Source: Atopobium massiliense
Lineage (GTDB): Bacteria; Actinomycetota; Coriobacteriia; Coriobacteriales; Atopobiaceae
Reading direction: 5' to 3'
NCBI GenBank assembly: GCA_900343135.1
Contig: OPYK01000010.1
Coordinates: 1 to 64,000, forward strand
DNA length: 64,000 nt
The position numbers were made by a program, and so were the translations under genes. Of the stretch, positions 14,453-44,528 are shown piece after piece (within the stretch, counting starts at the first letter, position 1; each line of letters begins with the position of its first letter). Below the pieces are notes generated by a model that was not told the origin of the DNA, did no database searches, and saw only the letters and a program-made list of their open reading frames with translations.

Positions 14453-16333
14453 TTAACCCCACACAATCGTTGGAATAATGGCGAGCACGCACACAATGTA
14501 CACGCAGCAGCTTATTGCCATCGAAATGCTTGAGAGGGCAAAACCCGAGGTATCGAGGTTACGCGCGTCGCGCATGCGCAACACTTTAAGATAAATTGGC
14601 GCGGTGATAAACGACAACGCAACGCTCACCATACACGAGATAAAGCAGACAACAAGCGAGCTTGCAGTATTGAGCATGCCAAGTTCCTGAGTAAAGGCTT
14701 GGAATACCAGCATAAACAACATAAAGAGCACCACAAATACCAGTGCAATGCCAATGCATTTTACAAAAAACCCCAGGTCGGATGGGGTAGAGGGGTCGTC
14801 GGGGTCGTTTTCGAGATAAAAATTGGTAACGTGGGAAATTGACGTGTCGGCAAGTATGAGGCACACGGGCGCCATAAGCGTGGAACATAAAAGCGTGAGG
14901 TCAAAGGATGTTTTCATATAGAGCGCGGGCGCAATAAACGACAGGTTACCCAGGGCGCACGCAAGCAGCGCGCAGGCGCAAACGAGCCACGCGCACATCC
15001 AATTGGTGTGACGCCACAGCCACACAAGGGCACTGCGCGAGCGGGCGCCTTCGCCGTCTGCAGAGCTTGCACCTGCAATTTGCAGGTCTTCCTCATGTTC
15101 TTCTTCCATAACATCAAGCGCGTCGTCTACGGTAACAATACCAAGCAGGCGTTTGTTGTCGTCGCACACGGGCATGGCCAGCAGGTTATATTTGGCAATG
15201 TTCTCGGCCACTTCTTCTTGGTCGTCGTCGGGGCTTACGCAAATAACATCGCTTGTAGCAATGTCTTTAAGCACGGTAGTGCTTTCGTGCACAATAAGTT
15301 GGTTGAGCGTAACCACGCCTACCAGGCGTTTCTCGTCGTCTTCAAGGTATATATAGTGAACTGTTTCGAAGTCGTCGTCCAGCGACTTAAGCACATCTGC
15401 TGCATCGGCAACCGTTTTTGTTTCGTTAAGGCGCACAACTTCCGACGTCATAATACGACCGGCGGTGTCCTCGCGATAGCCCAAAAGTTGGCGAATAGCT
15501 TTGCGCTCTTTTACGCCCATAAGCCTCAGCAGCTTTTCTGCCTTGTCGTAATCGAGCTCACTTACCAGCTCAGCGGCATCGTCGGGGTCCATTTCGCTTA
15601 ACATGCGCGACGCATCTTTTTCGGGCAGCTCGTCCATAATTTCGGCGGCCATGGTATCGTCGTCAAACTCCGCCATAGCGTCGGCTGCACGCTCGTCGTC
15701 TAGCTGCGCAAACACCTGCCCGCGCAGGCGCGGGTCGAGGCGCTCCAAAATGTCGGCAATGTCCGCAGGATGCAGTCCATCAAGCGTTTTGTGTGAAACA
15801 CTCAGCTTTACCTCCGACAAGTTGCGGTCGAGCAAATCCATGTAGTTCCACGCGATAATTTTTTCGGGAAGCGGCTTTCCCATTGCTTTTGCAATGGCAA
15901 GTGCAAGGGTTTCAAGCGCGGGTGAAAGTGAACGCAAAATACCGCGTATGCCCACCTCAGCGCCCAAAAGACGCAGCTGCGCCCAGCTTGTATCCGAGAG
16001 TTTAAGGTCGTTTACGCGCACAATGCACATGCCGCGCGTGTCTACAATTTGCTTATTAAGCAGGTCGCGTGCAATAAGAACCTCGTCGGGCTGCAGGTAA
16101 GAAAAACGAATGTCGGTTGAAATAACCTTAAGGTGAATTTCCGATTCGGAGTAGTTTTCTACATATTTGCGCCACGAAATCATAAATGGCGTTTTACCAG
16201 GGCCTTCAACAGCAAGCGCGGTAATGCGCGGGAACACTTCGCCCGTAGCTATACCCAGGTCGTTAACACGGCCTATCTTGGTTCCGTTGGCGTCGAAAAC
16301 AGGATTGCCAAGAAGTTGAGAGAGGTAAATCAT
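14453..16333 (-). CDS. MgtE-sensor-like CBS protein with divergent membrane domain
   Basis: A 626-residue protein. Order: two PRC-barrel-like segments (~1-155), an MgtE N-domain of Asp-rich helical repeats (~185-290; HPADIADILERLDP, DPDDAAELVSELD, LLGYREDTAGRIMT), two CBS domains (~295-420), an acidic linker, then about five membrane segments (~455-626). The cytoplasmic part is a clear MgtE Mg2+-sensing module. The membrane part is not: the conserved MgtE helix with PxxxGxxGNxGxQ is missing, replaced by unrelated sequence (PALYMKTSFDLTLL). It may therefore be a sensor or regulator of its partner rather than a channel. The start at 16333 follows AAGGAG; it is 150 bases away from the phosphodiesterase. 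It is tightly coupled (1-base gap) to the NRAMP-like gene downstream. Confidence 0.75.
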   Translation of the reverse strand: MIYLSQLLGNPVFDANGTKIGRVNDLGIATGEVFPRITALAVEGPGKTPFMISWRKYVENYSESEIHLKVISTDIRFSYLQPDEVLIARDLLNKQIVDTRGMCIVRVNDLKLSDTSWAQLRLLGAEVGIRGILRSLSPALETLALAIAKAMGKPLPEKIIAWNYMDLLDRNLSEVKLSVSHKTLDGLHPADIADILERLDPRLRGQVFAQLDDERAADAMAEFDDDTMAAEIMDELPEKDASRMLSEMDPDDAAELVSELDYDKAEKLLRLMGVKERKAIRQLLGYREDTAGRIMTSEVVRLNETKTVADAADVLKSLDDDFETVHYIYLEDDEKRLVGVVTLNQLIVHESTTVLKDIATSDVICVSPDDDQEEVAENIAKYNLLAMPVCDDNKRLLGIVTVDDALDVMEEEHEEDLQIAGASSADGEGARSRSALVWLWRHTNWMCAWLVCACALLACALGNLSFIAPALYMKTSFDLTLLCSTLMAPVCLILADTSISHVTNFYLENDPDDPSTPSDLGFFVKCIGIALVFVVLFMLFMLVFQAFTQELGMLNTASSLVVCFISCMVSVALSFITAPIYLKVLRMRDARNLDTSGFALSSISMAISCCVYIVCVLAIIPTIVWG

Positions 16334-16383
16334 GCAGCACTCCTTATGCAACGGCGTCGCGTATTGTATGCACGCTAGATGTA

Positions 16384-16398
16384 CAGATAACCTATCTG
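16384..16398. promoter_or_regulatory. Short inverted repeat upstream of the metal-transport pair
   Basis: CAGATA-ACC-TATCTG lies about 50 bases before the MgtE-like start codon, in the right place for an operator or 5' leader hairpin. A related half-site, CTACAGATATAAG, lies 15 bases further on. No M-box or other known Mg riboswitch could be recognised in the ~175-base spacer. Confidence 0.3.
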
Positions 16399-16509
16399 CA
16401 ATGTAATAGTCTACAGATATAAGGCGCCTATTAAGCTTGCATGGGGTGTGCAAACTAAACAGATTGATTTAATTCTACACGTGTTTGGACGTATGATGCA
16501 AAGTGGGTG

Positions 16510-33813: not shown

Positions 33814-33926
33814 TTTAGGCATGCAAGCTGCGGCTGAATAACAACATGCAGTATAGGGTATCCTTGTTTACATCAACATATTGTGGTAGGGTACTGTACC
33901 TGTTACCGCATTTTGAAAGGAAGGGT

Positions 33927-34982
33927 ATGTCACAATCAACGCCGCTTACTAATTCAGCTGTTTCTTCATCGTATGCCCGCGCGTTTGCATCGTCGCAGTC
34001 GCCTGTTGAGTTTGCGTATGAGCCGCACGCTGCGCACATGCGTGCCATTAACTGGAACCGCATTGTCGACGATAAGGACCTCGAAGTATGGAATCGTGTA
34101 ACGCAAAATTTTTGGCTACCCGAAAATATTCCCGTTTCGAACGATTTGCCCTCGTGGAATACGCTCGATGAGCGCTGGCAGCAGCTTATTATTCGCACGT
34201 TTACGGGCTTAACACTGCTTGATACGGTGCAGGCGTCTGTTGGCGACGTTGCACAGATTCGTCACGCGATTACCGACATCGAACAGGCAAACTACGCCAA
34301 CTTTGCGTTTATGGTTGCGGTACATGCGCGCAGCTACGGCACTATTTTTTCTACTTTGTGCTCAAGTGAACAAATAGACGAGGCACAGGCTTGGGTTGTA
34401 CATAACGACGCTTTGCAGGCGCGTGCACAAGCGCTTATTCCATACTACACGCAGGACGACGCGCTAAAAAGCAAAGTGGCGGCGGCTCTTATGCCCGGAT
34501 TTTTGCTGTATGGTGGCTTTTACCTGCCGTTTTATTTGTCGGCTCGCGGCAAGCTTCCCAACACGTCCGATATGATTCGCCTTATTTTGCGCGATAAAGT
34601 TATGCACAACTATTACAGTGGCTATAAATATCAGCAAAAACTTAAGCGCCTGGCAGCAGACGAGCAAGCAGCCATGAAGGAGTTTGTGTTTGACCTGCTC
34701 TACCACCTTATTGATCTTGAAAAGACCTATCTGTGCGAGTTGTACGATGGTTTTGACTTGGCGGACGATGCCATTGCGTTTAGTTTGTATAATGCAGGCA
34801 AGTTTTTGCAAAATCTTGGATACGACTCACCCTTTACTGCGCAAGAAACGCACATTGAGCCTGAGGTATTTGCGCAGCTCTCTGCCCGTGCCGACGAAAA
34901 CCACGATTTCTTTAGCGGGAGCGGTTCTTCGTACGTAATAGGAACGGCGGAGGAAACAACCGACGAGGATTGGGAATTTTAG
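33927..34982 (+). CDS. nrdF: Ribonucleotide reductase radical subunit, class Ie (VPK) type
   Basis: A 351-residue R2 subunit, closest in layout to class Ib NrdF. Three of the four metal-ligand glutamates are replaced: FMVAVHARSY has Val130 where FMESVH has Glu, LMPGFLLYGGFY has Pro190 where LESFLFYSGFY has Glu, and LRDKVMHNYYSGYKYQ has Lys224 where RDEAVHGYY has Glu. Asp99, His133 and His227 remain, as does Tyr137, the radical tyrosine position. Val-Pro-Lys at these places defines one group of class Ie enzymes, first described in Mesoplasma, which use a metal-free DOPA radical made from this tyrosine with NrdI. GAAAGGAAG precedes the ATG at 33927; an upstream frame to 33846 is not used. First gene of nrdF-nrdI-nrdE; nrdI follows with no gap. 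Confidence 0.93.
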   Translation: MSQSTPLTNSAVSSSYARAFASSQSPVEFAYEPHAAHMRAINWNRIVDDKDLEVWNRVTQNFWLPENIPVSNDLPSWNTLDERWQQLIIRTFTGLTLLDTVQASVGDVAQIRHAITDIEQANYANFAFMVAVHARSYGTIFSTLCSSEQIDEAQAWVVHNDALQARAQALIPYYTQDDALKSKVAAALMPGFLLYGGFYLPFYLSARGKLPNTSDMIRLILRDKVMHNYYSGYKYQQKLKRLAADEQAAMKEFVFDLLYHLIDLEKTYLCELYDGFDLADDAIAFSLYNAGKFLQNLGYDSPFTAQETHIEPEVFAQLSARADENHDFFSGSGSSYVIGTAEETTDEDWEF

Positions 34983-35465
34983 ATGAACATCGTTTATTTT
35001 TCGTCTACATCGGAAAACACGCACCGGTTTGTGCAAAAGCTGCGTTTTGATGCACCGAGCGGCTCGGCTATTTCTCCGCGTGCCTTGCGCATACCGATAG
35101 ACCCATCCGTGCAGCTTGAGGTACATGAACCCTACATTCTTATTTGTCCTACGTATGCGGGCGGCGGCACGTCCCGCTGCGGCAAGGTGGATACAACGGG
35201 TGCTGTTCCCAAGCAGGTAATTCACTTTCTTAACAAGTATGAAAATCGCTCACTGTGCCGCGCGGTTATTAGCAGCGGAAACACCAATTTTGGTGACAGT
35301 TTTGCGATTGCTGGACCAATTATTGCACACAAGGTTGGTGTACCGCTCATTTTTCAGTTTGAACTTTCGGGAACTATGGAAGATGTTGCGCTTGTTTCAC
35401 AACTTGTGACCGAAGAAATAACAATTGAGCAGGCGCAGAATGCCTGCACGCACGTCAAACGATAG
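34983..35465 (+). CDS. nrdI: NrdI flavodoxin-like protein
   Basis: A 160-residue flavodoxin-like NrdI. The FMN-phosphate loop is FSSTSENTHRFVQKL; the isoalloxazine loops include ICPTYAGGG and SGNTNFGDSFAIAG, all typical. NrdI supplies superoxide to activate the R2 subunit in class Ib and, as known for class Ie, drives the conversion of tyrosine to DOPA. The ATG directly follows the nrdF TAG, and nrdE starts eight bases after its stop. It is slightly longer than many NrdI proteins. Confidence 0.95.
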   Translation: MNIVYFSSTSENTHRFVQKLRFDAPSGSAISPRALRIPIDPSVQLEVHEPYILICPTYAGGGTSRCGKVDTTGAVPKQVIHFLNKYENRSLCRAVISSGNTNFGDSFAIAGPIIAHKVGVPLIFQFELSGTMEDVALVSQLVTEEITIEQAQNACTHVKR

Positions 35466-35473
35466 GAACGCAT

Positions 35474-37849
35474 ATGAGTACATCAACCAACACGCAAACC
35501 GACATGGCACAAGCCACCGTGTCAACCACTACCAACACGTCCGCCAACGCCCGTGACATTACACCCGAAAGCGCAGCTACCGTAGCTACCGCAGCGCCTA
35601 CCGTCGATACCGCCGCTATCGCTGCAGCTACAGATACAGCTGCACGCGACGCCTCATACATTTCGCTCAACGCGCTTACACGCTTTAAGACGCCCGACGG
35701 CCGTTTTAACTTTTCTGCAGATAAAGAGGCGTGCAAGCGCTATATCGAGCAAGAAATTATGCCGCGTATTATGCACTTTGAAAGCCTGCCAGCGCGCCTT
35801 GCGTACATGGTGCAGCACAACTATTACGACCACACTGTTATAAATGCATATAGTACGCCATTTATCCAAAAATTGTACGCCATTGCAGCCGAGGAGCATT
35901 TTGAATTTACGAGCCTTATGGGTGCGATGAAGTTTTACATTGCGTATGCGCTGCACACCGATGATGGCGCGCAGATTTTGGAGCAATTTGAAGACCGCGT
36001 GGTTATGTGCGCAATGTTTTTGGCGAACGGCAATGAAGAGCTTGCAAAACAGCTGGTTAAAGACATGATGGCGAATCGTTTTCAGCCAGCAACGCCCACC
36101 TTTTTGAACGCGGGCAAAAAGCGTCGTGGCGAATACATTTCGTGCTATTTGCTTCGCGTTGAAGACACCATGGAATCTATCGCACGCGGTATTAGCACCA
36201 GTTTGCAGCTTTCAAAGCGCGGGGGTGGTGTAGCGCTGTGCCTTACCAACCTGCGCGAAACAGCCGCGCCCATCAAGGGGTTTGAAAACCAGGCAAGCGG
36301 CGTTGTGCCCGTCATGAAGCTGCTCGAGGACACGTTTTCGTATGCAAACCAGCTTGGCCAGCGTCAGGGTGCCGGAGCTGTGTATTTGCATGCGCATCAC
36401 CCCGACATTATGCGTTTTTTGGATACAAAGCGCGAAAATGCCGACGAAAAAGTGCGCATTAAGTCGCTCAGTTTGGGTGTTGTTATCCCCGATGTAACGT
36501 TTCGTCTTGCTCAACAAAATAAGGATATGGCGCTTTTTTCGCCTTACGATGTAAAGCGCGAGTACAATGTGGCGCTATCCGATTTGTCGGTGAGCGAAAA
36601 GTACGACGAGCTGTGTGCCAACCCCCGCATTCACAAAACGTACATAAGCGCGCGTAAGTTTTTCCAAACCATTGCTGAGCTGCAGTTTGAGTCGGGCTAT
36701 CCCTACATTATGTTTGAAGACACCGTTAACTATTGCAACCCGCACAAGCGTGCCGGCCGTATTGTGATGTCTAATTTGTGCTCCGAGATTGCGCAGGTAT
36801 CAACCCCGTCTTCGTACACCGAAGATTTAAGCTTTACGCACGTGGGCGTTGACGTGTGCTGCAATTTAGGCTCAATTAATATTGCCCGCGCTATGGACGA
36901 CGCGCCGCACTTTGGCAGTCTTGTTCGCCACGCCATTTTTGCCCTCGATAGGGTGAGCCGCTCTTCCGATTTGGCGTGCGCGCCTTCGGTTAAAAAAGGC
37001 AACAATCTTAACCATGCCGTTGGGCTTGGTGCAATGAACCTGCACGGCTTTTTGGCAACGCACCACATCTATTACAACTCGCCCGAGGCGGTAGACTTTG
37101 TGGACATGTTTTTCTATGCCATGGCCTACCACGCGTTTAGCGCATCGTGCGACCTCGCGCAAACCTACGGGTCGTTTAGCGAGTTTTCCAACTCGGAGTA
37201 TGCCGATGGCAGCTATTTCGATAAGTACACAGGTGCCGACACAGCTCCTTCAACACCTCGTGTACGTGCGCTTTTAGCTGAGCTTGGCCTTACGCTTCCA
37301 ACTCGTGACGATTGGGTTTCTTTGGTCGAAAAAATCAAGGTCCGCGGGCTTGCCAATGCGCACCTTATGGCTGTTGCTCCTACGGGTTCGATTAGCTATC
37401 TTTCGAGCTGCACGCCTAGTTTACAGCCTGTAGTAAGCGCTGTTGAAACACGTAAAGAGGGCAAAATCGGCCGCGTGTACGTTCCCGCCTACAACATTAC
37501 CAATGACAACTATCGCTATTATCAAGATGGTGCATATGAAGTGGGCTACCAAGCCATTATTAACATTGTTGCCGCGGCGCAAAAGCACGTTGACCAGGCA
37601 ATTTCGCTTACGCTGTTTATGACGTCGCAGGCCACAACGCGCGATTTAAACAAGGCGTACATTTACGCGTTTAAAAAGCGGTGTAAATCAATTTATTACG
37701 TGCGCATTCGTCAGGATGTGCTTGAAGGCAGCGAGCATCTCGAAAACGACGAAGTTATTGCAGGCAGTGCTGATGGCGCAGCTGGTAATAGTTCGAGCGG
37801 GAACTTTGTGTGCACGGGTTCGAGTGAGTGTCAGGTGTGCATGATTTAG
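35474..37849 (+). CDS. nrdE: Ribonucleotide reductase catalytic subunit (class Ib/Ie R1)
   Basis: A 791-residue R1 subunit reducing ribonucleoside diphosphates. The substrate site shows YISCYLL (active Cys), the NPHKRAGRIVMSNLCSEI block with Asn-x-Cys-x-Glu, PTGSISYLSSC, the radical-path tyrosines in CKSIYYVRIRQ and the C-terminal CQVCMI redox pair for glutaredoxin/thioredoxin. No N-terminal ATP-cone, as usual for NrdE. The first ~60 residues are an unusual Thr/Ala-rich low-complexity extension before YISLNALTRFK, where NrdE homologues normally begin. AGGAACG lies before the ATG. A large inverted repeat follows the stop. Confidence 0.95.
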   Translation: MSTSTNTQTDMAQATVSTTTNTSANARDITPESAATVATAAPTVDTAAIAAATDTAARDASYISLNALTRFKTPDGRFNFSADKEACKRYIEQEIMPRIMHFESLPARLAYMVQHNYYDHTVINAYSTPFIQKLYAIAAEEHFEFTSLMGAMKFYIAYALHTDDGAQILEQFEDRVVMCAMFLANGNEELAKQLVKDMMANRFQPATPTFLNAGKKRRGEYISCYLLRVEDTMESIARGISTSLQLSKRGGGVALCLTNLRETAAPIKGFENQASGVVPVMKLLEDTFSYANQLGQRQGAGAVYLHAHHPDIMRFLDTKRENADEKVRIKSLSLGVVIPDVTFRLAQQNKDMALFSPYDVKREYNVALSDLSVSEKYDELCANPRIHKTYISARKFFQTIAELQFESGYPYIMFEDTVNYCNPHKRAGRIVMSNLCSEIAQVSTPSSYTEDLSFTHVGVDVCCNLGSINIARAMDDAPHFGSLVRHAIFALDRVSRSSDLACAPSVKKGNNLNHAVGLGAMNLHGFLATHHIYYNSPEAVDFVDMFFYAMAYHAFSASCDLAQTYGSFSEFSNSEYADGSYFDKYTGADTAPSTPRVRALLAELGLTLPTRDDWVSLVEKIKVRGLANAHLMAVAPTGSISYLSSCTPSLQPVVSAVETRKEGKIGRVYVPAYNITNDNYRYYQDGAYEVGYQAIINIVAAAQKHVDQAISLTLFMTSQATTRDLNKAYIYAFKKRCKSIYYVRIRQDVLEGSEHLENDEVIAGSADGAAGNSSSGNFVCTGSSECQVCMI

Positions 37850-37963: not shown

Positions 37964-38008
37964 AACATGTACGCACGTAACATGTACGCACGTACCATTT
38001 ACGCACGT
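37964..38008. repeat. Three 15-bp tandem repeats at the DeoR gene end
   Basis: AACATGTACGCACGT occurs at 37964-37978 and 37979-37993, with a two-mismatch copy (ACCATTTACGCACGT) at 37994-38008. The last copy supplies the stop and final codons of the DeoR-family gene on the minus strand. Confidence 0.9.
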
Positions 38009-38859
38009 AACACGGGCGTTCCTGTTTGTTGCAGGCGCATCAGCACGTCGGCATCTTTGCAATCGGTAATAACGGCAGAAAAATCGGTAATGCTCGCAAA
38101 ACGATAACTCATTTTTCTGGTAAATTTCTCTTTATTTGCAAGCAAAAATGTATATGAAGCATTATGAATAACTTTTTCTTTTACCGAGCCACTGTCTATA
38201 TCGCCCGCAGTAACCGCCATGGTTTCGAGGTTAATTGCTCCGGCACCAATAAACGCTTTGGCAAACAACAGGGGTTCTAGCAGGCTAATTGTTTCGGAGC
38301 CAACAAATCCGTTAAGTGCAATGTTCAAAAAGCCGCCCGTTGCCAGCGTAGTAATGTGCGGCGCGTTTGCCAAAATTTTAAGCACGTCAAGCATGTTGGT
38401 GGTAACAATCGCGCGCTTGTTGCCTTGTGCTAAAAGCGTTGCAATTTCAATATTGGTACGTGATAGGTCGAGAAACACCGAATCCCCGTCGTTTATCTCA
38501 AAATACGCGCGCCGTGCAACTGCACGTATTCCTTCTGTTTGGTCGTCCTCAACGCACTCATCATCAGTGTCTTCATGCGCATCTTGTGGCTCTAGGGGAA
38601 GCGCCTCGGTAAGTGAAGGTATTGGCTCGAGGTTTGATATATGGTGCTCGGCAAGATACGACGTTACGCGCTCGGTATCTTCGCTAATAAGCGCGCCACC
38701 ATACACGCGTTTGCATAAACCCATATGTGCCAAATGCTGCAGATCTTTTCGGATGCTATCAACACTTACCTGGTATTTTTCGGCAAGAGTGTCCACCTCT
38801 ACACGTCCGCGTGTATAGAGGATGCGCAGTATATCAACGTGACGTTCTTGTCGAAACAA
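37999..38859 (-). CDS. DeoR/GlpR-family sugar-phosphate-responsive regulator
   Basis: A ~286-residue repressor. N-terminal winged helix-turn-helix (ERHVDILRILYTRGRVEVDTLAEKYQVSVDSIRKDLQHL...CKRVYGGAL) is the DeoR signature. The C-terminal DeoRC effector domain (DGDSVFLDLSRTNIEIATLL, IVTTNMLDVLKIL, GFVGSETISLL, AFIGAGAINLE, LLANKEKF) binds phosphorylated sugars. An acidic insert (~85-105) separates the two. The TTG at 38859 is preferred: AAAGGAG lies five bases upstream and the protein then begins at the usual place; the ATG at 38874 is the alternative. It is divergent from the PTS-transketolase-deoC cluster, which it very probably controls. Confidence 0.87.
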   Translation of the reverse strand: MFRQERHVDILRILYTRGRVEVDTLAEKYQVSVDSIRKDLQHLAHMGLCKRVYGGALISEDTERVTSYLAEHHISNLEPIPSLTEALPLEPQDAHEDTDDECVEDDQTEGIRAVARRAYFEINDGDSVFLDLSRTNIEIATLLAQGNKRAIVTTNMLDVLKILANAPHITTLATGGFLNIALNGFVGSETISLLEPLLFAKAFIGAGAINLETMAVTAGDIDSGSVKEKVIHNASYTFLLANKEKFTRKMSYRFASITDFSAVITDCKDADVLMRLQQTGTPVLRA

Positions 38860-39193
38860 ACCAACTCCTTTCATTACCCTTATTGTAATGTACTTGCTCA
38901 TCATACAAGGCATATGCACGTGTTTTACAACTAAATTGGATAACTAGATTGAATATACAAACGTGGCATGCGGCTTAAAGCATGCCCTGCATTCAACCGT
39001 TCAGCCCATAAACAGGAACAAACAATAAAAAAATGTGGCAATTTTACGGAAATACTGATAAACTACACAGTGTGGCGCGGGTTTGTGCACCCGTATGCGT
39101 GCAACGCAAGCTGCAAAAACCTGCAGCAACCTGCATGTACGAGGGGCACCATAAACCAACCAATCGTAGATGCTACATCGATAGGAGTGTTAT
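38860..39193. promoter_or_regulatory. Divergent control region of DeoR gene and PTS cluster
   Basis: This 330-base gap should contain both promoters and the DeoR operators. Visible elements: an inverted repeat GGCATGC-GGCTTAAA-GCATGCC at 38965-38986, and an AT-rich stretch 39020-39070 with TTTTACGG...GATAAACT as a possible plus-strand promoter. The IIA gene ribosome site is TAGGAG at 39180-39185. No obvious catabolite-response element. Confidence 0.45.
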
Positions 39194-39643
39194 ATGACGA
39201 TGGAAGATATGCTCAGTCTTACCAATATTTGCATTGTTGATGCATGTAAAGACTGGCAGGACGCGGTGCATGTTGCTGTGCAGCCGCTGGTAAACGGTGG
39301 TTTTGTCACGCCTGCGTATATCGACGGGATTATCGAAAATACGCATAAGTTCGGGTCGTATTTTGTGCTAGCTCCCAACCTGGCGCTTCTTCACGCGCGC
39401 CCCGAGCAAGGTGTTATACATCAGCAGCTTGCCGTGTGTGTGGTGCGTAAGGGCGTTGTGTTTAAGGAGGGCGACGATCCGGTGTCCGTGCTCGTAACGC
39501 TTGCAGCGGAAAATCCAAACGACCATATCGATGTTATGCGCACTATTGCAACTCTGTTTGCCGATCCTGCCAACATCGAAGCGGTGGCGAAGGCTCCTGA
39601 CGTGCAAGCCGTCTACGATTTATTTGTTCGTGCTCCTCAATAA
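39194..39643 (+). CDS. PTS IIA component, ascorbate/SgaA-like
   Basis: A 149-residue PTS EIIA of the mannitol/fructose-type fold, most like UlaC/SgaA. The phosphorylatable His is in APNLALLHARPEQGV, matching the APxVALPHARPxxGV family pattern. It receives phosphate from HPr and passes it to the IIB Cys encoded at 41.3 kb. TAGGAG precedes the ATG. First gene of the cluster, 26 bases ahead of the IIC ATG. Confidence 0.9.
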   Translation: MTMEDMLSLTNICIVDACKDWQDAVHVAVQPLVNGGFVTPAYIDGIIENTHKFGSYFVLAPNLALLHARPEQGVIHQQLAVCVVRKGVVFKEGDDPVSVLVTLAAENPNDHIDVMRTIATLFADPANIEAVAKAPDVQAVYDLFVRAPQ

Positions 39644-39669
39644 GGGTGCACAGAAGAAAGGGGTGTGTG

Positions 39670-41098
39670 ATGGCTATTCTCGACGCCAGCTATTTTGGTT
39701 GGATTGCTTGCGTGCCTTGGTTTGGCGCTGCAAGGGAAACCTATCGAGGATATTATCAAGGGAACGCTTAAAACCATCGTTGGTTTTCTTGTTTTGGGCG
39801 CTGGTGCTGGATTCTTGCTTAGCAGCTCGCTTAATGCGTTTGGCCAGGTATTTAACTATGCGTTTAACATGCAAGGCGTTGTGCCAAATAACGAAGCCGT
39901 TGTTGCAGACGCGCTCAAGAACTTTGGTGTAAGCTCGGCAATTATTATGGCTGTTGGTATGGTGCTTAACATCGTGCTCGCACGTTTTTCGCGCATGCGG
40001 TACATCTTCCTTACCGGTCACCACACGCTGTACATGGCATGCATGATTGCTGTTATTTTGGGTGGAGCCGGCCATCTTGAAGGCTGGATGCTCTATCTTG
40101 CCGGCGGCTGCTTGCTTGCATTTATCATGGTTCTATCTCCTGCATACTGCCAGGTAACCTTCCGCAAAGTAACAGGTAGCAACGCCGTTGCTTTGGGTCA
40201 CTTGGGTGGTCTTGGCTACTGGGCTGCAGGTATGGTTGGTCGTCTTTTTGCAAACGACCCCAAGCGTCAAAGCACCGAGGAAATCAATTTCCCCAAGCGC
40301 CTCATTTTCCTGCGCGACACAACGGTTTCCATTGGTCTTACCATGGCATTTTTGTTCATCGTGGTAACGGGTATTGCCGTTGGCCGTGGTTTGCTGGTAG
40401 AAGGTCCTGCACTCTTTGCTGCCGACCCTGCTGCATTCCAAGCACAATTTGGTGCCCTTAAAGACCTTATGAACATTGGCTCCGAAACTAAAGTTAACTG
40501 GTTTGTATGGGCGCTTACCGGCGGTTTGGCATTTGCCGGTGGCGTTTACATTATCTTGAGTGGTGTACGTTTAATTATTGGCGAAATCGTGCCTGCATTT
40601 AAAGGTATTGCCGACAAGCTTGTTCCTGGCGCAAAGCCTGCACTCGACTGCCCTGTTGCCTTTACCTACGCTCCAAACGCGGTTACCATCGGCTTTTTGA
40701 GCTCGTTTGTAGGCGGCATTGTTGGTTTGTTTGTACTGGGTGGCATTAACGCTGCGCTTCCTGTTGCACTTATTCTTCCTGGTGTTGTACCTCACTTCTT
40801 CTGTGGTGCAACCGCAGGTGTATTTGGTAATGCCGAAGGTGGTATTAAAGGCTGCGTAGCTGGTGCGTTTGTACACGGTTTGCTTATTACGTTCTTGCCT
40901 GCAATTTGCATGCCTGTATTTAATGCGCTCGGTTATTCTGGTGCAACCTTCTCCGATGCCGACTTCTCGTGGATGGGTATTGTATTTGGCAACGTTATTA
41001 ATTTTGCAAACGGCACGCTGCTTATGCTGGTATGCGTTGTTGTATACCTTATCCCCATTATTTATAACTTCGTTGCACCTAAAAAAGAGGAAGCATAA
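39670..41098 (+). pseudogene. PTS IIC component, UlaA/SgaT family, apparent 5' frameshift
   Basis: An ascorbate-type PTS permease of about 475 residues with ~11 membrane segments (IIKGTLKTIVGFLVLGAGAGFLL, FLTGHHTLYMACMIAVIL, FAPNAVTIGF-type YAPNAVTIGF, PHFFCGATAGVFGN). The only start with a strong ribosome site (AAAGGGG) is the ATG at 39670, but its frame (MAILDASYFG) ends early; the permease frame begins after a TGA at 39668-39670 and reads WLFSTPAILVGLLACLG. Family members read ..L-S-TPAILVGL.., so adding two bases near 39679-39682 (CTCTCG instead of CTCG) restores MAILSTPAILVG. This is a real 2-bp slip, a sequence error, or initiation at the TTG at 39695, which has no ribosome site. The rest of the gene is intact and normal. 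Confidence 0.8.
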
Positions 41099-41160
41099 CA
41101 CGAGGTTATCGACGGGTGCTATGCGTGCAACGCTGTCGCGTTAACACCTTTTGTACGTGC

Positions 41161-41194
41161 AAAAAGCCGGCGCGTCAACTGCGTCGGCTTTTTT
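41161..41194 (+). terminator. Intra-cluster terminator between IIC and IIB
   Basis: AAAAAGCCGGCGC at 41161-41173 pairs with GCGTCGGCTTTTT (41180-41192, one G-T pair), followed by a T-run to 41194. It lies ~60 bases after IIC and 115 bases before IIB, so IIB and the genes after it may be partly attenuated or have their own promoter. Confidence 0.85.
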
Positions 41195-41308
41195 ATACGC
41201 TCGCCGAAAATTTTGCACGCCGCTGCATGAATATGTGCTAGCAGTAGTAAACTTTATGACATGGGTGTTCCATAGTGCACCACCAACACATTTATCAAAG
41301 GAGATACA

Positions 41309-41596
41309 ATGAGTGTACGTAAAATTTTGTGCTGTTGCGGCTCCGGTTTGGGTTCTAGCCTTATCGTTCACATGAACGCCGAAGACGTTGTTAAAAAGCT
41401 TGGTCACCCAGAAATTGAGGTAGACCACACCACCATTTCCGACATCAACCCATCAGCTGCCGATTTATTTGTTGTTGGCAACGATCTTAAAGACTTTATT
41501 ACCAATGTAGACGACGACCGCAAAGTTGTGTTGGTTAATATTCTCGACAAAGCAGAGCTTGAAGCAAAACTTACCGACGCTATTGAGTCGCACTAA
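41309..41596 (+). CDS. PTS IIB component, ascorbate/SgaB-like
   Basis: A 95-residue PTS EIIB of the lactose/ascorbate type. The phosphocysteine loop is ILCCCGSGLGSSLIV. It takes phosphate from the IIA His and transfers it to the substrate entering through IIC. AAGGAG precedes the ATG. The three PTS parts are separate polypeptides, as in the ula system. Confidence 0.92.
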   Translation: MSVRKILCCCGSGLGSSLIVHMNAEDVVKKLGHPEIEVDHTTISDINPSAADLFVVGNDLKDFITNVDDDRKVVLVNILDKAELEAKLTDAIESH

Positions 41597-41860
41597 TCAG
41601 CCGTTTGTGTATACCAGCTGTTAGTTTATAGAGCGTGCCGTAGAGTAACCATCAGGTTTAATGTAACTACCAGGTGGTTTTGCGTTTTTTTGCGTAAATT
41701 ACCGTGCGGTTAGCTCGTCTTGCGTACATGCGGGTATAGTAACTATGTGTACAGGTTTGCGCACGTAATTGTGCAGTGTAATGCAGCTCGTGTGCCCTGT
41801 ACTCATACTCGTTGTTGCGTGCTTATGCACAAAAGAATTGGTACAAGTAAGGAGTAATTG
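41597..41860. other. Spacer between IIB and transketolase
   Basis: A 264-base gap, long for an operon. No strong terminator; ACCAGGTGGT (41668-41677) is a short inverted repeat followed by T-rich sequence. An internal promoter for the transketolase genes is plausible but no hexamer pair is convincing. The downstream ribosome site is AAGGAG at about 41849. Confidence 0.4.
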
Positions 41861-42817
41861 GTGGAAAAACAAGAGTTGAAACAGGTTGAGCTTCTTGCCA
41901 CGAAGCTGCGCCGTGATGTTCTTGCCATGCTGCAAAAGCGTGGATATGGCCACGTTGGTGGATCGCTTTCTTTGGCAGATTTATATGCTGTGTTGTATAC
42001 CAAGCACCTTCGTCATCGTAGCGATAACCCTACATGGGATGGTCGCGACCGTATTGTGTTGTCCAAAGGGCATGCAGGTCCGGTTATGTATTCGTGCCTT
42101 GCAGAAGAAGGTTATTTTCCTGGAGAATGGCTCTTTACGCTTAACGATGGCGGTACGCGTTTGCCATCGCACACCGACCGCTTAAAAACACCTGGTGTTG
42201 ATGCAACAACAGGTTCGCTTGGTCAGGGAACATCGGTTGCCGCAGGTATTGCCTATGCACTGCACCTGCAGCATAAAGACAACTACACCTATCTTATTGT
42301 GGGTGATGGCGAGCTTAACGAAGGTCAGTGCTGGGAAGCGTTTGAGTTTATTGCAGCTCACCGCCTTAGTAATTGCATTGTTTTTATCGACAACAACAAA
42401 AAGCAGCTCGATGGTAGCTGCGAAGACATTTTGTACCCGTTTGATTACACCGAAAAAATGAAGGCGTTTGGTTTTATGGCGCAATGTGTAAATGGTCAGG
42501 ATGCCGAGGCACTCGACTGCGCCATTCAACGTGCAAAAGACAATAAATCGTCGGCGAATGCTATTGTGCTCGACACCATTAAGGGCGCTGGCATTCCATA
42601 TTTTGAAAATGCCGAAATGAACCACTCAATGAAGTGGAACAACGACGAAATTAATGCTGCCACCGATGAGGCGATTGCAGGGTTTGACCAGCGCATTGCT
42701 GCTCTTGCGTTTGAGCTTAACGGACAGTCAAAGGCATGTCCATGTTCTGGTGATGATGATACACAGGCACGTGCATGCACCGCACGCATTCAATGTGATG
42801 AAGGAGGCGAGGCATAA
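41861..42817 (+). CDS. Transketolase, N-terminal (thiamine-pyrophosphate) subunit
   Basis: A 318-residue split transketolase N subunit. The TPP-binding domain shows GHVGGSLSLADLYAVLY, KGHAGPVMYSCLAEEGYF, the GSLGQGTSVAAGIA block and the metal/TPP motif GDGELNEGQCWEAFEFIAAHRLSNCIVFIDNN. Together with the next gene it forms a full enzyme moving two-carbon units between ketoses and aldoses. The GTG at 41861 follows AAGGAG by six bases; TTG at 41858 is in frame but too close. Ends in a 1-base overlap with the C subunit gene. The last ~20 residues are Cys/Arg-rich and extra. Confidence 0.95.
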   Translation: MEKQELKQVELLATKLRRDVLAMLQKRGYGHVGGSLSLADLYAVLYTKHLRHRSDNPTWDGRDRIVLSKGHAGPVMYSCLAEEGYFPGEWLFTLNDGGTRLPSHTDRLKTPGVDATTGSLGQGTSVAAGIAYALHLQHKDNYTYLIVGDGELNEGQCWEAFEFIAAHRLSNCIVFIDNNKKQLDGSCEDILYPFDYTEKMKAFGFMAQCVNGQDAEALDCAIQRAKDNKSSANAIVLDTIKGAGIPYFENAEMNHSMKWNNDEINAATDEAIAGFDQRIAALAFELNGQSKACPCSGDDDTQARACTARIQCDEGGEA

Positions 42818-43776
42818 TGGCTACTCGTGCACACGATTTTGGCGCAAAAGGCACAGCCTATCGCGACGCCGTTGTACATACCCTGCTTGAGCTTATGGAA
42901 CATAACGATAAAGTGTTATGTTTGGATGCCGACTTGGGCGGCGCAAGCGGTACTCTTGCCATTGCCAAACAACGTCCTTCTCAATTTATCGATTTGGGTA
43001 TTGCCGAGCAAAACATGATGGGCATGGCTGCAGGTATGAGCTCAGAAGGCTACATTCCGTTTTGTCACACCTTTGGACCGTTTGCTACACGCCGCTGCTT
43101 CGACCAAATTTTCCTTGCTGGCGGCTATTCGCACAACACAATTAATATTTGGGGCTCCGACCCTGGCTTTACCGCAGGAGCAAACGGTGGTACCCACACT
43201 ACCTGGGAAGATGTTGCGCTCATGCGCATGATTCCTCAAAGCGTAGTAGTAGATGCTGCAGATGCCGTTCAAATGGCGTGGATTCTTAAAGAATTTGCAT
43301 CGCGCCCCGGTGTTAACTATGTGCGCAGTGGTCGTAAAGACGCCTATAAAATTTATGAAGAGGGCTCAACCTTTGAGCTTGGCCGCGGCACAATTTTGCG
43401 TGAGGGCACCGATGTGCTCATCGTTTCGGCAGGTCAGCTTCTTAAAGATGCTATGGACGCAGCAAACACGCTTGCAGATGAGGGTGTTTCGGTAGAGCTT
43501 ATTGATATGTTTTGTATAAAACCATTCGATACCGAGCTGCTCTTATCTGAAGCCGCAGGTAAAAAGGCTGTTGTGACGTTTGAAAACCACAGCATTGAAG
43601 GCGGGCTTGGAAGCATTTGTGCAGAAACGCTCATGGAAGCGGGTGTACATGTACCCTTTAAGCGTCATGGCGTATACGAAGAGTTTGGCCAGGTAGGTAC
43701 TGCATCGTGGCTGCAAGCTGCGTTCCACCTTACTAGCGACGATTTGGTACACACCGTTCACACGCTGCTTGCGTAA
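42817..43776 (+). CDS. Transketolase, C-terminal (pyrimidine-binding) subunit
   Basis: A 319-residue split transketolase C subunit. The pyrimidine domain carries the catalytic Glu in DLGIAEQNMMGMAAGMSSEGYIPFCHTFGPF, followed by the FDQI and NVWGSD-type blocks and the C-terminal domain VVTFENHSIEGGLGSICAETL. ATG overlaps the upstream TAA (TAATG), so the subunits are co-translated. A terminator follows 46 bases after the stop. Confidence 0.95.
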   Translation: MATRAHDFGAKGTAYRDAVVHTLLELMEHNDKVLCLDADLGGASGTLAIAKQRPSQFIDLGIAEQNMMGMAAGMSSEGYIPFCHTFGPFATRRCFDQIFLAGGYSHNTINIWGSDPGFTAGANGGTHTTWEDVALMRMIPQSVVVDAADAVQMAWILKEFASRPGVNYVRSGRKDAYKIYEEGSTFELGRGTILREGTDVLIVSAGQLLKDAMDAANTLADEGVSVELIDMFCIKPFDTELLLSEAAGKKAVVTFENHSIEGGLGSICAETLMEAGVHVPFKRHGVYEEFGQVGTASWLQAAFHLTSDDLVHTVHTLLA

Positions 43777-43821
43777 AGCTCTGCGCGGCTCAGCTGCTCT
43801 AGCTGCGAATTAGCATGTTGT

Positions 43822-43861
43822 AAAACCATCTACGCGCTATCTGCTCCGTAGATGGTTTTTT
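43822..43861 (+). terminator. Terminator or attenuator before deoC
   Basis: AAAACCATCTACG (43822-43834) pairs perfectly with CGTAGATGGTTTT (43847-43859), loop 12, with continuing T. It lies between the transketolase genes and deoC, whose ribosome site follows almost at once, so deoC expression depends on read-through or conditional termination. Confidence 0.88.
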
Positions 43862-43886
43862 ATACGTTTTAACAAAAGGAGTTGCT

Positions 43887-44528
43887 ATGAAACCACTTTC
43901 TGCGTACATCGACCACACAAATCTTAAGCAAAACGCTACCGCACACGACATTAAAACGCTGTGCGAAGAGGCAGCAGCTCATGGCTTTAAAACGGTTGCC
44001 ATTAACAGCTACTGGACTCGCCATGCTGCCGCGTGGCTTGCGGGCACGAATGTGGGCATAACCACATGTATTGGTTTTCCTTTAGGGGCTTCGAGTAGCG
44101 CTGCTAAGGCGTTTGAAGCGCACCAGGCAGTGCTTGATGGTACCAGCGAAATCGATATGGTAATTAATGTGAGCGAGCTTGTAGCAGGCAATTATGATGC
44201 GTGCACAGCCGACATTAAAGCTGTGGTTGATGCTGCAGATGGTGTGCCCGTTAAAGTAATTCTTGAGTGCTGCTTGCTTGATGATGAGCATATTGTTGCT
44301 GGGTGTGAGTGTGCTCTACGTGCAGGTGCAGCGTTTGTTAAAACTTCAACGGGCTTTTCTTCTGCGGGTGCAACCGTACACGATGTGGCTCTTATGCGCA
44401 AAACAGTTGGATCGCGCTGCAAGGTTAAAGCGGCAGGCGGTATACACACTCGTGACGAAGCGCTTGCCATGATAGAGGCAGGTGCCGACCGCATTGGTGC
44501 TAGCGCTTCTATCGCAATATGCGCGTAG
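43887..44528 (+). CDS. deoC: Deoxyribose-phosphate aldolase
   Basis: A 213-residue class I aldolase splitting 2-deoxyribose 5-phosphate into glyceraldehyde 3-phosphate and acetaldehyde. YIDHTNLKQNAT begins the barrel, the Schiff-base Lys is in FVKTSTGF and the second lysine region is KAAGGIHT; EIDMVINVSEL and VKVILECCLL are conserved strands. AAAAGGAG precedes the ATG. It is the last gene of the PTS-transketolase cluster and converges on lemA. Confidence 0.96.
   Translation: MKPLSAYIDHTNLKQNATAHDIKTLCEEAAAHGFKTVAINSYWTRHAAAWLAGTNVGITTCIGFPLGASSSAAKAFEAHQAVLDGTSEIDMVINVSELVAGNYDACTADIKAVVDAADGVPVKVILECCLLDDEHIVAGCECALRAGAAFVKTSTGFSSAGATVHDVALMRKTVGSRCKVKAAGGIHTRDEALAMIEAGADRIGASASIAICA

Follow-up and report, generated by a model that had tools for sequence, protein, structure and literature searches.

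Gene Organization of the nrdFIE Locus

The window, a stretch of 64,000 nucleotides from an Atopobium massiliense contig, carries three ribonucleotide reductase (RNR) genes on its plus strand: nrdF (33927..34982), encoding a class Ie (VPK) R2 radical subunit, nrdI (34983..35465), encoding a flavodoxin-like activase, and nrdE (35474..37849), encoding a class Ib/Ie catalytic subunit (R1). The nrdF reading frame is open, with a product of 351 residues, and nrdI and nrdE are both intact and score above their family cut-offs (TIGR00333, 149.5 bits vs. 74.65, with PF07972, for NrdI; TIGR04170, 972.6 bits vs. 750, for NrdE), in agreement with the original prediction that the full operon is intact. NrdE ends in a C-terminal Cys-x-x-Cys (...SECQVCMI), and translation may begin at a start codon further downstream than the one given here. 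VPK enzymes are typically encoded in the order nrdF-nrdI-nrdE seen here, which nearly all VPK genomes share and which was not encountered with the QSK type (John et al., 2025; PMC11846895). On the 3' side of nrdE, a family-conserved block (37999-44525) encodes DeoR, PTS IIA/IIC/IIB, a split transketolase and a DeoC-like aldolase.

Residues at the Metal Site and Class Assignment

Three metal-ligand Glu are replaced in the window NrdF, by V130 (GTT, codon at 34314), P190 (CCC, 34494) and K224 (AAA, 34596), while D99 (34221), H133 (34323), Y137 (34335) and H227 (34605) are retained, and every one of these codons lies where the original prediction had put it when it proposed that carboxylates were lost and these four residues kept. 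In alignments of related loci, the signature DVHYPKH was shared by the window NrdF and the proteins of Mesoplasma, Spiroplasma, Mycoplasma, Streptococcus ictaluri and Lactobacillus, whereas the class Ib NrdFs read in the same alignments, that of E. coli K-12 included, all had Glu at the three sites (DEHYEEH). The class Ie proteins of Gardnerella, Bifidobacterium and Actinomyces (Bifidobacteriaceae and Actinomycetaceae) displayed DQHYSKH in the locus alignments, and pairwise alignment with the window NrdF gave DEHYAEH for three remote R2s from the host's order. The window protein has neither the three Glu of a class Ib R2 nor the Gln/Ser/Lys of the QSK type, and carries the Val/Pro/Lys of the VPK type at the three ligand sites. 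DVHYPKH marks a clade with 100/100 support in the NrdF tree, and the pattern is therefore not due to chance. This VPK clade of 11 rows includes the window protein and is separate from the QSK and class Ib proteins.

Comparison with solved structures pointed in the same direction, with 6ebo/7mmp (~605 bits) and 6gp2 (579 bits) as the top matches and E. coli NrdF at 379 bits, so that class Ie structures outscore E. coli NrdF by ~200 bits. These top matches are R2 proteins of Aerococcus urinae and Mesoplasma florum, for which the metal-free state has been proven by experiment. In the radical structure of Mesoplasma florum R2e, the residues that move or form bonds include D88, Q91, Y126, Y163, L183, F187 and K213 (PMC7615503), and all seven (7/7 checked) are conserved in the window NrdF at a constant offset of +11, as D99, Q102, Y137, Y174, L194, F198 and K224. 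The DOPA-site network residues D99, Q102, Y137 and K224 are among them, an observation that concerns the residues and not the modification. The class Ie assignment originally proposed is thus borne out by the residues, the nearest solved relatives and the position in the VPK clade.

Regulatory Sequences Upstream of nrdF

A tandem pair of 16-bp NrdR-box-like sequences, TAACAACATGCAGTAT and CATCAACATATTGTGG, lies directly before nrdF (33839..33886, plus strand), with starts at 33839 and 33871, 32 bp apart. Scored against an NrdR-box consensus, the pair reached 21, which was tied best in the window and was obtained at 4 of the 255,814 placements tested on both strands; its sum was equalled by one other plus-strand pair, whose weaker half was poorer, and by two minus-strand pairs. 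A putative sigma-70-type promoter (TTGTTT - 17 bp - TAGGGT, approximately 33865..33893, plus strand) was recognized by reading the sequence, and its spacer overlaps the second box. The same promoter layout (TTGAAG - 17 - TAGACT) precedes the nrdF of a second carrier of the operon, designated G367 and described below, and the best tandem NrdR-like pair in the G367 stretch also lies before its nrdF. In the stretch of the present genome that contains nrdDG, the best such pair is found at the 5' end of nrdD. With an nrdR gene present in the genome, these motifs suggest that nrdFIE and nrdDG are probably both under NrdR control.

Ribonucleotide Reductases and Metal Transport in the Genome

A search of the genome for further RNR genes detected one class I R2, the window NrdF, with no second NrdF, and one class III nrdD followed by nrdG; no NrdJ was found above the cut-off apart from a cross-match to NrdE. 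The genome is estimated to be 95.5% complete, making these absences provisional, as a second RNR could be missing from the assembly. Provisionally, therefore, nrdFIE is the only class I RNR of this genome, beside the class III nrdDG.

The original prediction had also placed nrdF next to atypical metal-transport genes and proposed a metal-sparing lifestyle, and neither claim was upheld. The only Nramp gene of the genome (13075-14496, minus strand) lies ~19.5 kb from nrdF. Its best structure match, at 467 bits vs. 112 bits for the next, was 7qia, the Eggerthella lenta NRMT magnesium transporter, and it contains the motifs DAGG and TTIAPW; on these motifs and the structure match, a manganese-type Nramp was rejected. 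The binding-site residues of NRMT, Gly, Thr and Ala (PMC8806188), are present in the window protein, suggesting that it is likely to be an NRMT-type transporter that takes up magnesium rather than manganese. The Nramp gene overlaps a gene for a PRC-MgtE_N-CBS protein (14453-16453, minus strand). Two TroA/ZnuA-type (Zn/Mn-type) ABC importers were found in the genome, neither of them above an equivalog cut-off that would fix the metal. NrdG is a radical-SAM type activase and needs an iron-sulfur cluster. Together, the magnesium-type Nramp, the two Zn/Mn-type importers and the dependence of NrdG on iron-sulfur leave a metal-sparing lifestyle unsupported, and metal saving would at most be limited to aerobic ribonucleotide reduction.

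Distribution and Genomic Context of nrdFIE

When the window NrdF was used as a query against 397 genomes of the host's order, 57 gave any R2 match, and a close R2e was found in only two, the present genome and G367, which belongs to another family and whose NrdF is 82% identical. The remaining class I R2 matches were remote (~24-30% identity), and all 29 loci that were read were not class Ie; in three further genomes from the genus of G367, the sole class I R2 match was a remote one. The two operons share 82.6% (NrdF), 58.8% (NrdI) and 74.8% (NrdE) identity, and they are sisters in both trees (99/99 for NrdF, 100/99 for NrdE), within a VPK clade made up otherwise of Bacillota and Mycoplasmatota. 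Support is weak (82/66 for NrdF, 80/80 for NrdE) for the fork that joins the window to genes on Lactobacillus plasmids. Of 128 VPK sequences, 93 were previously assigned to Mycoplasmatales and 24 to Lactobacillales, with the remaining 11 elsewhere (John et al., 2025; PMC11846895). G367 also encodes an IsdE-like haem ABC importer ~1.5 kb upstream of its nrdFIE (L250:3893-6838).

The upstream (dnaX-recR-mutY) and downstream (deoR-PTS-transketolase) flanks of the window operon are both native to the host family, and in the relatives that were read these flanks are separate, for example on different contigs in genome G218. The GC content of nrdFIE (0.49-0.51) is like that of its neighbours and its GC3 (0.48-0.56) matches the host, and a recent transfer judged by composition was accordingly rejected. 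A phage or viral origin was also discarded, as no phage record reached 60% identity to the window NrdF and all 80 viral-contig loci read were class Ib (DEHYEEH). The presence of PTS genes 2 kb downstream of nrdFIE on plasmid pHL20_1 raised the idea that PTS genes were transferred together with nrdFIE, but the PTS-transketolase block of the window is native to the family (its PTS IIC is 90% identical in G218) and gave no match on the pHL20_1 stretch, which led us to discard this idea.

VPK nrdFIE operons are also carried by plasmids in three Lactobacillus species (L. gasseri, L. paragasseri and L. crispatus) and by one L. kitasatonis contig (L194:8010-11584, L195:5983-9557, L196:7858-11432 and L002). 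Across these four species the copies have 98.8-99.3% DNA identity over ~3575 bp, which suggests that the metal-free RNR spread recently by plasmid; a literature search found no paper on such plasmid spread.

Discussion

We propose, with a probability of about 0.9, that nrdFIE of the window is a class Ie (VPK) RNR that uses a metal-free DOPA radical, is the only class I RNR of its genome, and was acquired by transfer. What the analysis shows directly is the NrdF sequence, its residues, the operon, the phylogeny and the distribution. By analogy with characterised relatives that are ~79% identical, the window NrdF would be active and carry the metal-free DOPA radical, and the route from a NrdI-derived oxidant through the DOPA radical to NrdE has been demonstrated in VPK relatives (PMC11846895; PMC7615503). 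In the window enzyme, O2 would oxidise reduced NrdI and the oxidant (superoxide/HO2) would be delivered into NrdF, where hydroxylation of Tyr137 would give DOPA, and oxidation of the DOPA a stable radical, with no metal involved; Lys224 and Asp99 are expected to organise the site in which Glu residues would otherwise hold metal. NrdE would then receive the radical and reduce ribonucleoside diphosphates, and the supply of dNTPs would be split between nrdFIE and the anaerobic NrdDG, probably under NrdR.

Two other views of the enzyme have to be weighed. The NCBIfam label reads class 1b, and His133, His227 and Asp99 are still there, as might be expected of a class Ib protein that has atypical ligands yet still works with Mn or Fe; however, all three Glu are replaced, one of them by Lys, as in the R2e that is metal-free by crystallography, Glu is kept in every class Ib sequence read, and the nearest solved relatives are class Ie, which leaves this view scarcely credible. 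It is also very unlikely that nrdF is an inactive remnant in an organism that depends on class III RNR alone. The genome does contain nrdDG, and with this query a class I R2 was found in only 57 of the 397 genomes of the order, but the three reading frames are intact, the functional residues are kept at 7 of 7 positions checked, the promoter and NrdR-like boxes are conserved, and comparison with G367 indicates purifying selection (dN 0.20 and dS 2.24 for nrdE, dN 0.28 and dS 3.17 for nrdI, with dS near saturation).

As to origin, because R2e is confined to 2 of the 397 genomes, and the other class I R2s of the order are remote and, in the 29 read, not class Ie, the simplest reading of these sequences is that nrdFIE was gained by horizontal transfer. 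A rival on this point, though not on the class of the enzyme, is that the common ancestor of the order already had nrdFIE and that almost every lineage has since lost it. The two carriers group as sisters, and the base composition of the operon fits the host, both consistent with ancestry; the carriers are nevertheless only two, spread over two families, their pair falls among Bacillota and Mycoplasmatota, and the three other genomes of G367's genus have only the remote match, so we regard ancestral origin as unlikely. Building on horizontal transfer, we tentatively suggest, as a possibility held at well below even odds, that an order nearly without class Ib/Ie RNR acquired a metal-free nrdFIE on one or more occasions, the source being a pool that is also found on plasmids of human-associated lactobacilli, allowing O2-compatible DNA synthesis without Mn or Fe in the RNR.

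The window operon extends metal-free RNR to a lineage in which it is very rare, and as the only class I RNR of its genome it offers a test case for whether a class Ie enzyme supports aerobic growth under metal starvation. Seen alongside the plasmid copies, the operon points to class Ie as a mobile trait, in keeping with the exchange among distant genomes that John et al. (2025; PMC11846895) put forward.

Enzymes of this type are known and were described recently, and the window NrdF adds a VPK class Ie member from an unusual host. Among solved structures, its best match is the Aerococcus urinae class Ie R2 (6ebo, 7mmp series), with which it shares the V-P-K triad and a near-identical active-site stretch (NFAFMV-G/A-VHARSYGTIFSTLC) in an alignment covering residues 19-351 of the window protein; the Aerococcus protein differs in being ~80% identical, in its Lactobacillales host, and in having Gly where the window NrdF has Ala131. 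The Mesoplasma florum class Ie R2 (6gp2, 6gp3, 8bt3, 8bt4) has the same seven functional residues at the +11 offset, but comes from a different host lineage and is more distant in sequence. The QSK R2 of Gardnerella vaginalis (8rag, 8rah), in which DOPA was shown (PMC11846895), is likewise class Ie with three Glu replaced, but has a Q-S-K triad, a nrdHIEF operon and only 53-54% identity to the window NrdF. In contrast, E. coli K-12 class Ib NrdF has the fold family and the NrdI partner in common with the window protein, but retains the three Glu ligands and is 54% identical.
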